Shown here: piece after piece, positions 2,152 to 34,545 of the stretch
Position numbering within the stretch: position 1 is the first letter of the stretch
Layout of the letters: each line of letters begins with the position of its first letter
Source: Bacteroidota bacterium
GTDB taxonomy: Bacteria; Bacteroidota; Bacteroidia; NS11-12g; UBA955
Length of the DNA stretch: 34,545 bases
Direction of reading: 5' to 3'
Assembly: GCA_030834125.1 (NCBI GenBank)
Contig: JAURFW010000018.1
Span: 1 to 34,545, forward strand
Program-made: the position numbers and the translations under genes
Notes under the pieces: generated by a model
Told to the model about the DNA's origin: nothing
Databases searched by the model: none
The model's input: only the letters and a program-made list of their open reading frames with translations

Positions 2152-3381
2152 ATGTCTGTTTACAATAAAAACAAAATAATTAACGACCCTTTACACGGGT
2201 TTTTAACCATTCCAACAGGTCTAATTTATGATTTAATTCAACATCCTTATTTTCAAAGACTTCGTAGAATTCGTCAATTGGGAATGAGTGAGTGGGTTTA
2301 TCCAGGCGCTACTCACACGAGATTTCATCATGCATTAGGTGCAATGAAGTTAATGCTATTAGCATTGGACTCGTTGAGGAAAAAAGGAGTTGAGATTACC
2401 GATCAAGAATATGAAGCCACTGCAATAGCTATATTATTACACGATATTGGACATGGTCCTTATTCACACACATTAGAGCATACTTTGATTCACGAAGTTC
2501 AACATGAGGAAATCTCAATAAGTATTATGAATAAGTTGAATTTGCAGTTCAATGGGCAAATGGATATGGCAATTCAAATTTTTCAATCAAAATATTTAAA
2601 AAAACCTTTTTTAACTCAGCTTATTTCAGGGCAGTTAGATATGGATCGATTGGATTATCTCTTGCGTGATAGTTTTTACACTGGGGTAAGTGAAGGTATT
2701 GTAGGAGGTGAGAGGATAATTAATATGTTAAATGTGGTAGGCGGAAATTTAGTAGTTGAAGAGAAAGGGATTTATTCAGTTGAGAAGTTTTTAGTAGCTA
2801 GAAGGTTAATGTATTGGCAAGTTTACCTACATAAAACTGTTATTGCAGCAGATGCATTGTTGATTTCTATTCTCAATCGTGCTCGCGAGCTTGCTCATGT
2901 TGGACATTCTTTAGGAAGTTATCATCCATTATTGCATTTTCTAATCAATGATATTTCTCGTGAGAATTTTGATGATGAAGCTTTAGAGCTTTTTCTATCA
3001 TTAGACGATATTGATATTATGTCTAGTGTGAAACTATGGCAATTTCATGAGGATAAGATATTAAGTACTTTGTCTAGAAGTTTAATAAATCGCAATCTTC
3101 CAAAGGTGAAAATATCAAAAGTAAATTTGGGTCAATTGGATATAGAGGAGGCTGTGAAGTCAACCATGGAGAAAATGAATATTTCAGAAGAAGACTCAAG
3201 AAAGTATTTTGTAAAATATGGATTGTTAGAGAATCATGCTTACAAAAGTGAGGGTGGAGGGATAAGGATTTTGAATAAACATGGTGAAGTTAATGACGTT
3301 GCAGAATCAAGCGATAATTATAATTTAGCCGCATTAAAGGAAACAGTTAAAAAATACTATTTGTTAAGGTGGGTAAACTAA
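2152..3381 (+). CDS. HD-domain phosphohydrolase (dNTPase/SAMHD1-like)
   Basis: A 409-residue cytoplasmic HD-superfamily metal-dependent phosphohydrolase, related to dGTPases and SAMHD1. The signature NDPLHGF near residue 11, the HTRFHHALGA block (metal-binding His around 55-60), the HD pair in LLHDIGHGPYSH (His97-Asp98) and a later Asp in QLDMDRLDYLLRD (about 163-168) together form the H...HD...D site. Family members hydrolyse deoxynucleotide triphosphates or other phosphoesters; the true substrate cannot be read from sequence. ATG at 2152 is chosen because homologues begin shortly before the NDPLHG motif and a TTG at 2134 lies within the -7 element. Its 3' end overlaps rsmA by 13 bases, so the two are probably co-transcribed. 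Confidence 0.88.
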   Translation: MSVYNKNKIINDPLHGFLTIPTGLIYDLIQHPYFQRLRRIRQLGMSEWVYPGATHTRFHHALGAMKLMLLALDSLRKKGVEITDQEYEATAIAILLHDIGHGPYSHTLEHTLIHEVQHEEISISIMNKLNLQFNGQMDMAIQIFQSKYLKKPFLTQLISGQLDMDRLDYLLRDSFYTGVSEGIVGGERIINMLNVVGGNLVVEEKGIYSVEKFLVARRLMYWQVYLHKTVIAADALLISILNRARELAHVGHSLGSYHPLLHFLINDISRENFDDEALELFLSLDDIDIMSSVKLWQFHEDKILSTLSRSLINRNLPKVKISKVNLGQLDIEEAVKSTMEKMNISEEDSRKYFVKYGLLENHAYKSEGGGIRILNKHGEVNDVAESSDNYNLAALKETVKKYYLLRWVN

Positions 3382-31106: not shown

Positions 31107-31949
31107 TTATTCGAGTGTAGCCTTAACTGGGTAATGGTCTGAAAGATATTTAATAGGGATATTGGGATTTCTAACAGTATTATTTATTTCGCACTGTAAT
31201 AATTTTGAATTTTTAATGAATATGTAATCAATGCGTTTCCCTAGTTTTGACTCTTCTTTATCAAAACCGTTGAAAGTGCATTGGTTTGGTTGATCTTTAC
31301 CTACATCGATCATTCTTTTTGAAATCCATTTAATTGGTCTTGATGTTGGAGGTAAATTAAAATCTCCCATCAAAACAACTCTTACCGAATCACTAGTCCA
31401 CTTCTGAATCTGATTATAAATAATCTTCATGCTTTTTCGTCTTGCTCGCTTTCCAATATGGTCAAAATGTGTATTCATTACCAACCATTTAGTATTAGAA
31501 TTCAAGTCTTCAAAAAGCCCTACAGTTGCAATTCTAGGCAAGGCTGCATCCCATGATTTTGAAGGATATTTTTTGTTTTTCGACAACCAAAATGTGGTAG
31601 GTAATTCACTAGATATTATGGGTTTGAACTTGTTTTTATTATAAAACAAGGCGCAATGTTCGCCTTGAGTATCACCGAAATCACGACCAACACCAATCCA
31701 TCTATAATTATCACCTAAATTAGATTGAATGTCCCGCACTTGATGAATTAATCCTTCTTGAACCCCTAAAAAGTCAATTTGCGATTTTTTCAAAAAATTT
31801 CCAACTGCATTTTTGCGATTATCCCAAGAATTAATACTATCGTTTGGAGTAGCATAACGGATATTAAAAGTCATGAACGTAACTTGTGATATTCCAAGTC
31901 GCGTTAGAAAAATTAATCCAACAAATAGTATCCTACTCAGTAATGACAT
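31107..31949 (-). CDS. Secreted endonuclease/exonuclease/phosphatase (EEP) family protein
   Basis: A 280-residue hydrolase with the EEP fold and an N-terminal signal peptide (about 1-21, ending GISQ), so it acts outside the cytoplasm. Active-site blocks in order are TFNIRYATPND (Asn), FLGVQEGL (Glu), MNTHFDHIG (His), VLMGDFNLPP (Asp, Asn), KRIDYIFI and LSDHYPVKA (Asp-His). All expected residues are present. Family members cleave nucleic acids, phospholipids or sugar phosphates; the export signal argues against a repair role. The ATG at 31949 overlaps the end of the upstream broken gene by 17 bases, so it probably belonged to that operon. Confidence 0.9.
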   Translation of the reverse strand: MSLLSRILFVGLIFLTRLGISQVTFMTFNIRYATPNDSINSWDNRKNAVGNFLKKSQIDFLGVQEGLIHQVRDIQSNLGDNYRWIGVGRDFGDTQGEHCALFYNKNKFKPIISSELPTTFWLSKNKKYPSKSWDAALPRIATVGLFEDLNSNTKWLVMNTHFDHIGKRARRKSMKIIYNQIQKWTSDSVRVVLMGDFNLPPTSRPIKWISKRMIDVGKDQPNQCTFNGFDKEESKLGKRIDYIFIKNSKLLQCEINNTVRNPNIPIKYLSDHYPVKATLE

Positions 31950-32181
31950 TTTTTACTCTGCTACCATCATTATAGTGGTAGATATATATTTGGTTGGGTA
32001 AAGGATTTTCAATTTGTTTACCTTGTAAATTATAAATCCGTAGTAGGGTTTTTGGTAATTGATATTCCAAATCAAAAACTGAATTTGTATTGTCAGTACA
32101 ATTATTAAAAATATTATTGCTGTAGTAATTCCAGTTCAACTTAGCCCAAATCATAATATCAGAGATGTAATCTGAGATCAT
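31933..32181 (-). pseudogene. C-terminal remnant of a T9SS-sorted beta-helix protein
   Basis: An 82-codon frame beginning at an ATGA overlap with the N-terminal remnant. The frame is open a little further upstream, to about 32207. The first part (SSRISNMISDYISDIMIWAKLNWNYYS, read across the ATG; key pattern I-x-x-x-I-x-D-x-x-D) resembles the last rung of right-handed beta-helix proteins, usually preceded by a NYWG motif that is missing here. The end (LRIYNLQGKQI, then IYIYHYNDGSRVKNVI) is a type A sorting domain of type IX secretion. It has no signal peptide of its own, so it cannot work as a separate gene. It overlaps the EEP gene by 17 bases. Confidence 0.7.
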
Positions 32182-32483
32182 ATTTGAAATTCGTGAAGAC
32201 TCAACGCTTCAAATAAAATAGGATTGTTTTTATTCCCAATAGCAATTAACTCACCTTGAACCAATAAGTCTTTTGAAGTATTTGGGTCGGTTTTAATTAT
32301 TACCCCAGGCTCGATTATTACTGTTGTGTTTTCAACAACTAACGCATTTTGATTGAGAATATATGGACTATATGAGGTGGTTAATGTGATATTACTATCG
32401 ATGATGGCCGGTAACTGCGTTTGCGCTATTACTATTCTTGAAATTGAGAAAAGCGACAACAGAAGGAGGCTTAAGTTTTTCAT
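32178..32483 (-). pseudogene. N-terminal remnant of a T9SS-sorted beta-helix protein
   Basis: A 101-codon frame from ATG 32483. Residues 1-21 form a clear signal peptide ending IVIAQ. Then comes the typical start of secreted right-handed beta-helix proteins: SPYILNQNALVVENTTVIIEPGVIIKTD, LVQGELIAIGNKNNPILFEA (key pattern I-E-P-G-V-x-I, G-x-L-x-A-x-G-x-x-x-N-P-I-x-F). After FEA the frame runs out in about nine uninformative residues and stops at 32178. The rungs that should follow are absent and the sequence passes, out of frame, straight into the C-terminal remnant. I infer an internal deletion. It has its own -7 element at 32490-32497. Confidence 0.7.
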
Positions 32484-32489
32484 TAGGTC

Positions 32490-32507
32490 CAAATATAGGT
32501 ATATTTG
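32490..32507. promoter_or_regulatory. Palindromic pair of divergent -7 elements
   Basis: CAAATATA-GG-TATATTTG: two exact TAnnTTTG elements facing away from each other with a 2-base spacer, forming a perfect 8-bp inverted repeat. The minus-strand element ends 6 bases before the ATG of the beta-helix remnant (32483). The plus-strand element ends 3 bases before the lipoprotein ATG (32511). Two polymerases could not use both at once. The dyad could also be an operator. Confidence 0.6.
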
Positions 32508-32510
32508 AAT

Positions 32511-32906
32511 ATGGCTTTAAGAAACAGAATCCGTACCATTTTTTGCTTACTTACACTATCTGCTGTTCCTGTAATTATTCTTAACAGTTGCGAAAACAAA
32601 GATGTAATCTGCACAATGGAATTTCGTATGTTAAGCGTTGAAATTTTGGGTGATTCTACCGATAGAATTTACAGTATTGATTCAAGAAATGGAGATACTA
32701 TTGATGGGTATGAAATTTTTGATTTGAATTGGTGTTTTGCAGATGACGGAGAATGGTTCAATAGGCTGAAGGAAGATGAAAATCGTACAGTAAGTATCAC
32801 GGCCATTTCCAAAGGTGGTAAAAGTGTAAAAACCAGTTGTGTTATTACGCGAGATGCTTGCCATATTGAGAAAGTTTCCGGACCAGGAAAAATAATTTAC
32901 CCATAA
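32511..32906 (+). CDS. Small lipoprotein next to a TonB-dependent receptor
   Basis: A 131-residue exported protein of unknown function. The signal peptide ends at a lipobox-like LNSC (Cys27). The mature part keeps four further cysteines (34, 75, 110, 117) in CTMEFRML, LNWCFADDGEW, KTSCVITRDACHIEKVSG, probably two disulfides. VSITAISKGGKSVKTSCVITRD looks like an immunoglobulin-like strand pair. It is 80 bases upstream of the receptor, so it may be a surface or periplasmic partner of it; that is inference from position only. ATG 32511 is chosen over TTG 32505, which is inside the -7 element. Confidence 0.8.
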   Translation: MALRNRIRTIFCLLTLSAVPVIILNSCENKDVICTMEFRMLSVEILGDSTDRIYSIDSRNGDTIDGYEIFDLNWCFADDGEWFNRLKEDENRTVSITAISKGGKSVKTSCVITRDACHIEKVSGPGKIIYP

Positions 32907-32970: not shown

Positions 32971-32978
32971 TAACTTTG
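32971..32978 (+). promoter_or_regulatory. Putative -7 element (TAACTTTG) of the TonB-dependent receptor
   Basis: Exact TAnnTTTG, 8 bases before the receptor ATG at 32987. It lies in the 80-base gap after the lipoprotein and suggests the receptor also has its own promoter. No -33 box recognised. Confidence 0.45.
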
Positions 32979-32986
32979 TTTAATCA

Positions 32987-34545
32987 ATGTTTTTTTTCTC
33001 CAGGAATTCTTTCTCAACGTATTTACTAATACTTTTTACTTTTCATATTTCAATCCTTGATTCACAGTCAGATTCTTTTGAAACTATAGAAGATATTGTA
33101 ATCACAGGTACAATGAATCCTGTGAAATTATCTGAAAGCCCTGTTCATCTTGATATTTATAACGCTCAATTTCTAAAGCAGAACCCTACTGCTCATTTAT
33201 TTGATGCACTGCAATTGGTTAATGGAGTTAGACCCCAAGTAAACTGTAATGTATGTGCTACTGGAGACATTCATATTAATGGAATGGAAGGTCCATATAC
33301 TATGATATTGATTGATGGAATGCCGATTGTTAGTTCTTTGGCATCGGTATATGGTTTGATGGGGATTCCAAATTCAATAATTGAGCGTTTGGAAATTATT
33401 AAAGGACCCGCTTCGTCATTATACGGCAGCCAGGCCATAGGAGGAATAATTAATATTATCACTAAAAGGAATGCAAGCAAATTTTCAAACATTGAAATTT
33501 GGAGTAACACTTGGTCAGAAACCAATATTGACTATTCAAATTCTACTAAATTAGGTTTAAAAGGTAACCTAATTACTGCGATTAACGGTTTCTCAAACCC
33601 CTTGATAAAAGATAGAAATAATGATGGTTTTACAGATATTCCAATTCAAAAAAGAGCTGCCATTTTTCAGAGGTTATCGCTTAAAGGAAAAGCCAATCAA
33701 TTATTTCAACTTTCTTGGAGAGGTTTAATTGAAGATCGATGGGGTGGACAAATTAATTGGAAAAGAAAGCATTTTGGTGGAAGTGAAATATACGGAGAAG
33801 CAATTCAAACAAAACGCTTGGAATTATTAAGTTCCTACGAATTTTCATCTAAAATACCTCTGAAAATTCAAACTTCGAGTGTATTTCATCGTCAAAACAG
33901 CGCTTATGGAAATGTATTGTTTCAAGCCGAGGAGTCTTTGCTGTTTGGTCAATTAATATGGCAGCCCAACTGGGAAAAACACGATTTATTGGTAGGTACT
34001 GCGATAAAATATACCCATTACGATGATAATACTGTAATTACTGAAGCCTTAAAGCAGGATTCGATAATGATATCAAAGCCTTTGATTACAACTTTACCAG
34101 GCATTTTCTTTCAAGATGAATACCATACAGGCAGTCACACATTTCTTTTGGGGTATAGATTAGATCATCATCCCAAACATTCTTGGATTAATAGTACTCG
34201 ATTTTCATATCTTTATAAATCAAAAAATTTGGGTCAATTTCGTGTAGGAAGCGGTACAGGGTTTAGAACTGTAAATATATTTACAGAAGAGCATGCCGCA
34301 TTAACGGGAGCAAGAAAAGTTATTATTGAGGAAGATTTAATGCCAGAGCAAAGTTCGAATTATAACTTTTCTTGGTCTAATACATGGACACCCGCAAAAA
34401 ATCAGTTTATTCAAACAGATATTCAGTTGTTCTATACAGTGTTCACTAATCAAATTCAAGCGGATTATTCTCGTGATTTCAATTCAATTTATTATGGTAA
34501 TTCAAGTGGAAATTCATGGAATAGAGGTACATCATTAAATTTATC
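32987..34545 (+). CDS. TonB-dependent outer membrane receptor (5' part)
   Basis: The first 519 residues of a receptor that continues past the window end. Residues 1-27 are a signal peptide. A TonB-box-like segment (EDIVITGTM, about 35-43) leads into the plug domain: LFDALQLVNGVRPQVNC, HINGMEGPYTMILIDGMPIV, then IPNSIIERLEIIKGPASSLYGSQAIGGIINIIT (key residues E-I-x-K-G-P-x-S-x-L-Y-G-x-x-A-x-G-G). From about 165 on, alternating strands form the barrel. The plug has a C-x-x-C (Cys87, Cys90 in VNCNVCATGD). There is no carboxypeptidase-like regulatory domain before the plug, so it is not SusC-like; it is closer to cobalamin/siderophore-type receptors. Substrate unknown. Confidence 0.93.
   Translation, partial: MFFFSRNSFSTYLLILFTFHISILDSQSDSFETIEDIVITGTMNPVKLSESPVHLDIYNAQFLKQNPTAHLFDALQLVNGVRPQVNCNVCATGDIHINGMEGPYTMILIDGMPIVSSLASVYGLMGIPNSIIERLEIIKGPASSLYGSQAIGGIINIITKRNASKFSNIEIWSNTWSETNIDYSNSTKLGLKGNLITAINGFSNPLIKDRNNDGFTDIPIQKRAAIFQRLSLKGKANQLFQLSWRGLIEDRWGGQINWKRKHFGGSEIYGEAIQTKRLELLSSYEFSSKIPLKIQTSSVFHRQNSAYGNVLFQAEESLLFGQLIWQPNWEKHDLLVGTAIKYTHYDDNTVITEALKQDSIMISKPLITTLPGIFFQDEYHTGSHTFLLGYRLDHHPKHSWINSTRFSYLYKSKNLGQFRVGSGTGFRTVNIFTEEHAALTGARKVIIEEDLMPEQSSNYNFSWSNTWTPAKNQFIQTDIQLFYTVFTNQIQADYSRDFNSIYYGNSSGNSWNRGTSLNL

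Follow-up and report, generated by a model that had tools for sequence, protein, structure and literature searches.

Two adjacent, divergent TAnnTTTG elements in a 27-bp gap of a Bacteroidota genome: putative sigma-A promoters close to the start codons

How two genes that start away from each other across a gap of only 27 bp may both be transcribed is the question raised by positions 32484–32510 of a contig from a Bacteroidota bacterium, analysed here over its full length of 34,545 bp (referred to as the window). The reading we favour, and hold to be likely, is that the gap contains two back-to-back sigma-A promoters situated near the ATGs, giving leaderless or near-leaderless mRNAs, with polymerases that would be mutually exclusive. 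The features of the region are the following.

32484..32510, no strand: gap between the two divergent ATGs, 27 bp long, holding both putative promoters
32490..32507, no strand: imperfect palindrome CAAATATAGGTATATTTG with 8-bp arms CAAATATA and TATATTTG and an unpaired GG centre
32500..32507, + strand: putative -7 element TATATTTG of the lipoprotein gene, 3 nt from the ATG at 32511
32490..32497, - strand: putative -7 element TATATTTG of the beta-helix remnant, 6 nt from the ATG at 32483
32511..32906, + strand: small 131-aa protein that appears to carry a lipoprotein signal (LNSC, identified by eye)
32178..32483, - strand: 101-aa remnant of the N-terminal part of a secreted protein whose relatives mostly have frames of ~450–570 aa
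31933..32181, - strand: 82-aa ORF, perhaps left over from the C-terminal part of this gene, with weak similarity to two homologue loci
32971..32978, + strand: putative -7 element TAACTTTG of the TonB-dependent receptor gene, 8 nt from its ATG
32987..34543, + strand: TonB-dependent receptor with Plug domain, truncated where the contig ends (window and contig are identical)

The lipoprotein gene belongs to no Pfam family and gave no NCBIfam match above cut-off. Homologues were found at eight loci in seven other genomes; counting its own, 8 out of 57 genomes have a match, and the 13 further genomes of the genus that were searched have none. A strict element is present within 70 nt upstream in five of the eight homologue loci, with gaps of 16, 6, 15, 13 and 22 nt, and an opposite element is found upstream in none of the eight. 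On the - strand, the 101-aa ORF aligns with the first part of the longer proteins, in agreement with a preliminary description of this DNA, made from the sequence alone, in which the gene was considered broken, while the 82-aa ORF matches its two homologue loci with E values of 3e-5 and 3e-4. The region 31933–32483 of the window thus appears to hold the remnants of a secreted-protein gene of which most of the middle is apparently gone, the ATG and a signal-peptide-like start being intact. The name beta-helix is that of the preliminary description; the family search gave it no support and NCBIfam showed no family for either remnant. None of the 14 homologue loci of this gene has the element pair, nor does any of them show a strict element at 45 nt or less from the parsed start.

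Both elements in the gap match TAnnTTTG exactly, one on each strand, and are 2 bp apart, neither overlapping nor shared; their distances to the ATGs, 6 and 3 nt, are those given in the preliminary description. The -7 element of Bacteroidetes sigma-A (sigma-ABfr) is TAnnTTTG at -12 to -5, with the final G at -5 and 4–5 nt to the start (PMC6847099, PMC9723704). The putative promoters share this exact consensus on both strands, and a -33 element is weak or absent as in Flavobacterium johnsoniae (PMC6847099, PMC7366714). Neither promoter has a TTG at the usual -33 distance, and a motif search among 79 promoters of the host genome revealed no -33 motif; since F. johnsoniae likewise has no clear -33 motif, a missing -33 does not rule out the sigma-A class here. 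The host genome carries a gene for an RpoD-like sigma factor; a scan with the sigma-70 consensus was uninformative, giving 6 matches compared with 5.7 expected.

The position of the element relative to the ATG was analysed in a sample of the host genome comprising 834,533 of its 2,296,609 bases (40 stretches, L020–L059, together with the window), with ORFs of 120 aa or more counted as genes and their first ATG as the start, by one rule across all groups. In this sample TANNTTTG is located 3–9 nt before the ATG in 76 of the 582 ORFs with sufficient sequence upstream, compared with 4 for the reversed motif, and the counts for gaps of 0 to 9 nt (0, 1, 1, 5, 21, 15, 9, 15, 8 and 3) show a sharp onset at 4 nt. 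With the last G at -5 and a spacing of 4–5 nt, a gap of 4 nt would put the start of transcription on the A of the ATG. The preferred location close to the ATG argues that both elements in the gap, already taken as promoter elements in the preliminary description, probably do function as sigma-A promoters, giving mRNAs with no or almost no leader.

Two complete housekeeping promoters of the form TAnnTTTG would then be read outwards, one for each gene, with transcription beginning at the start codon or one or two bases before it and almost no leader. By analogy with the 4–5 nt spacing in F. johnsoniae, the start is predicted at 32511 or 32512 on the + strand and at 32485 or 32484 on the - strand. 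With 3 nt, the + gap lies at the limit of the range, being shared by only five elements in the sample of the host genome, and a strict 4-nt spacing from this element would start transcription within the ATG; because the 3-nt gap is unusual, the + start may be situated exactly on the A, with a spacing of 3 nt.

When the same position was compared among lineages, the element was found 3–9 nt before the ATG in 20 of 145 ORFs in a second genome of the same genus, in 9/144, 15/155, 11/134 and 2/30 ORFs in other genera of the host family and in 7/123, 4/132, 6/130 and 10/97 ORFs in the other family of the same order. For named Bacteroidota and six close relatives loci surrounding rpoD were used, 71 out of 80, leaving out those with unclear labels (L163, L164, L169, L177, L183, L209, L216, L220 and L226); groups were assigned by record titles, except for L157–L162, which were placed by RpoD identity. 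The closest RpoD matches, with 97–98% identity, are unclassified Bacteroidetes metagenome genomes, and in the six close relatives (L157–L162) 9 of 57 ORFs carry the element. The corresponding numbers are 1/89 for Hymenobacter, 1/220 for other Cytophagales, 6/113 for Sphingobacteriales, 1/214 for Bacteroidales and 6/133 for Flavobacteriaceae and Flavobacteriales, so that 0.5–5% of the ORFs in the other sampled Bacteroidota have the element at this distance. Among 59 genomes of the host family the pattern TANNTTTG-N4-ATG occurs 5902 times compared with 2657 for the reversed pattern and is the more frequent of the two in 59 out of 59. This anchoring of TAnnTTTG to the ATG suggests that leaderless mRNAs are widespread in the host family, and the anchoring of promoters to start codons in this lineage is a more interesting result than the site itself.

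The strength of the two putative promoters was addressed by scoring their flanks. The + promoter was placed at the 23rd percentile among 75 promoters and the - promoter at the 5th, the latter exceeding only 58% of 783 background elements, which suggests ordinary to weak promoters with the + side being the better one. These scores, in the lower range, count against two working promoters, as do the lack of a visible -33 element and the fact that the pair is kept at no homologue locus. They also bear on a second explanation, to which we give a smaller though real chance, namely that the lipoprotein promoter works alone, without competition, the - element being either a decaying leftover of the broken gene or a fortuitous match. 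The low - score, the reduction of the - gene to a 101-aa remnant and the 14 beta-helix homologue loci with no strict element near the start all speak for such an explanation, whereas the - element is exact and inside the preferred range of 3–9 nt, and the remnant still begins with an intact ATG and signal-peptide-like sequence. Under the favoured reading with two promoters, the - direction would probably now give a short or useless message, the gene being broken, and the + direction would feed the small lipoprotein. In the preliminary description the question was raised whether the promoter survives only for the lipoprotein/receptor side; the part concerning the lipoprotein fits weakly with the difference in flank scores, but the receptor has an element of its own. 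Because this putative -7 element is located 8 nt before its ATG, the receptor gene could be transcribed independently of the lipoprotein gene.

Pairs of elements facing away from each other were searched for both with and without regard to an ATG. Without an anchor, elements 0–8 bp apart were found at 10 places in the host genome compared with 7 for the reversed pattern, at 155 compared with 140 in the same genus (14 genomes) and at 584 compared with 627 in 57 genomes; an overall enrichment of such pairs was therefore rejected. When an ATG was required 3–9 nt from one of the elements, 226 adjacent pairs were found in 59 genomes compared with 94 for the reversed pattern. In the sample of the host genome, six divergent pairs have an element and an ORF (≥60 aa) in each direction, the elements being 2 bp (32490–32507) to 63 bp apart, and among the 10 facing pairs of the genome only the one at 32490–32507 is flanked in both directions by ORFs of that size starting no more than 10 nt away. 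These numbers bear on the improbable explanation that two AT-rich 8-mers lie close to ATGs by coincidence while transcription comes from elsewhere. It would be consistent with unanchored pairs being no commoner overall than the reversed pattern, but elements and pairs that are anchored to an ATG are enriched, and with a gap of only 27 bp any alternative promoter would have to be situated inside the opposite gene.

A second gene pair, gltX and yqeY (named by reading the protein sequences), shows the same arrangement. A set of 30 yqeY loci (L331–L360) was collected, of which 27 were parsed after dropping three where the script found no start. The yqeY element is located 4 nt before the ATG in 23 of the 27 and 5 nt in three, with no strict form in the remaining one, and in 11 of the 27, from 11 related genomes belonging to two genera (L331–L339, L346 and L348), an opposite-strand gltX element is found 1–2 bp from the yqeY element, with the genes 31–32 bp apart. 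In four genomes of the window's genus the two elements are 19 bp apart. Since 11 of the 27 loci retain such an adjacent divergent pair, the view of the preliminary description that both elements are promoters gains further support. Among the cases with 1–2 bp spacing the free bases differ between the arms.

A further divergent pair is found in one relative (L118:1274–1291), where a TetR-type and a cupin-type gene, both named by eye, diverge across CAAATTTACGTATTTTTG, with a 2-bp spacing and gaps of 4 nt and 4 nt, making this a candidate promoter pair doubling as operator.

The symmetry of the site was described initially as a perfect 18-bp palindrome. This was rejected as the central GG does not pair; 16 of the 18 positions are symmetric, with the 8-bp arms pairing fully. 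Inverted repeats with 8-bp arms and a 2-bp spacer occur three times in the window compared with 1.07 per window in a first-order random model, and 42 times in the 834,533 sampled bases, equivalent to 1.7 per window length, while TANNTTTG is not enriched across the window (41 seen, 50.3 expected). Two elements of the host genome agree in their two free bases, which is what full pairing of the arms requires, with a probability of ~0.15 or about 1 in 7. Judging from the sequence, the 16/18 symmetry is mostly a side effect of the same motif occurring twice, in opposite directions and with a 2-bp spacing, a view supported by the gltX/yqeY pairs, where adjacent elements persist without full symmetry.

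The preliminary description proposed that a dimeric repressor could block both genes at once, the palindrome being its operator. We consider this very improbable. The arms are indeed fully complementary, the site is the only facing pair among the 10 in the genome with arms identical as read, and the TetR-type/cupin-type pair, with the same 2-bp spacing, indicates that such sites can adjoin regulators. An operator would be expected to be an inverted repeat beyond chance and to be conserved. Inverted repeats of this size are, however, at chance level (three in the window with about one expected), for which reason the repeat was rejected as evidence for a repressor, and symmetry at this level does not by itself indicate one. 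Neither of the genes adjoining the gap matches a regulator family, and the palindrome is found upstream of none of the eight lipoprotein and none of the 14 beta-helix homologue loci. Such a comparison with related genomes was proposed in the preliminary description for genomes that still have both genes; the palindrome is not kept at the homologues, but the two genes were found side by side in none of the genomes searched, so its absence there says little about this particular pair. The search for both genes covered the surroundings of the lipoprotein homologues and of the receptor homologues, with every minus-strand locus taken on its proper side in the former set.

Returning to two working promoters, RNA polymerase covers far more DNA than the 2 bp that separate the -7 elements. 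With elements so close it is likely that a single polymerase would be bound at a time and that the two directions would exclude each other, as we infer from the spacing and the size of the enzyme. Competition between the two genes, if it takes place, would be measurable only if one direction were strongly used. In the preliminary description overlapping footprints were taken to mean that the genes compete; the exclusion stands as inferred, but in the E. coli bidirectional promoters tested there was no competition at basal activity, only with one side activated (PMC12825309). The bidirectional promoters described in E. coli and Salmonella by Warman, Grainger and colleagues likewise combine divergent starts, near-symmetric DNA and mutually exclusive polymerases (PMC12825309). 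In those the -10 elements are shared or overlapping with starts 7–25 bp apart (PMC10268837), whereas here the elements are adjacent and the starts, predicted from the spacing, would be ~26–28 bp apart, just beyond that range. The literature searched contained no paper on bidirectional promoters with divergent transcription start sites in Bacteroides. The site is a compact case of a known type, adjacent divergent promoters, and its own value is modest, as a tidy example of that type.

A survey of leaderless genes (Zheng et al. 2011) offers a further comparison. In the genes it describes, the promoter precedes the start codon by ~10 bp, a placement that lets transcription begin at the start codon as is predicted here. 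The survey looked for a Pribnow-like TANNNT and lists the Bacteroidetes among the clades rich in 'atypical' genes; the form TAnnTTTG is absent from its text (PMC3160421). In the host genome the element is mostly found 3–9 nt from the ATG, whereas most flavobacterial and Bacteroides mRNAs in the published data carry a leader, with medians of 24 and 32 nt, respectively (PMC9723704, PMC7366714). Leaderless or very short-leader mRNAs make up ~4–6% in Bacteroides thetaiotaomicron and Flavobacterium psychrophilum (PMC7366714, PMC9723704), and the Bacteroidetes are generally without Shine-Dalgarno use (PMC6847099, PMC10783764). It seems to us an even question whether leaderless transcription from ATG-anchored sigma-A elements is a main mode in this uncultured host family, with divergent gaps of ~27–32 bp that contain two full promoters and form a compact two-way switch, selected at pairs such as gltX/yqeY and perhaps new at the lipoprotein/beta-helix locus. 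If so, a promoter tied to the start codon would be a second answer to how start codons are chosen in such bacteria, and it would account for divergent genes only 27 bp apart.

A further form, the 14-mer CAAANNTANNTTTG in which two elements share the TA, was found at 17 places in the host genome compared with 11 for the reversed pattern. One example with a common TA, CAAAAGTAAATTTG, is located at 3116–3129 of the window, within an ORF.
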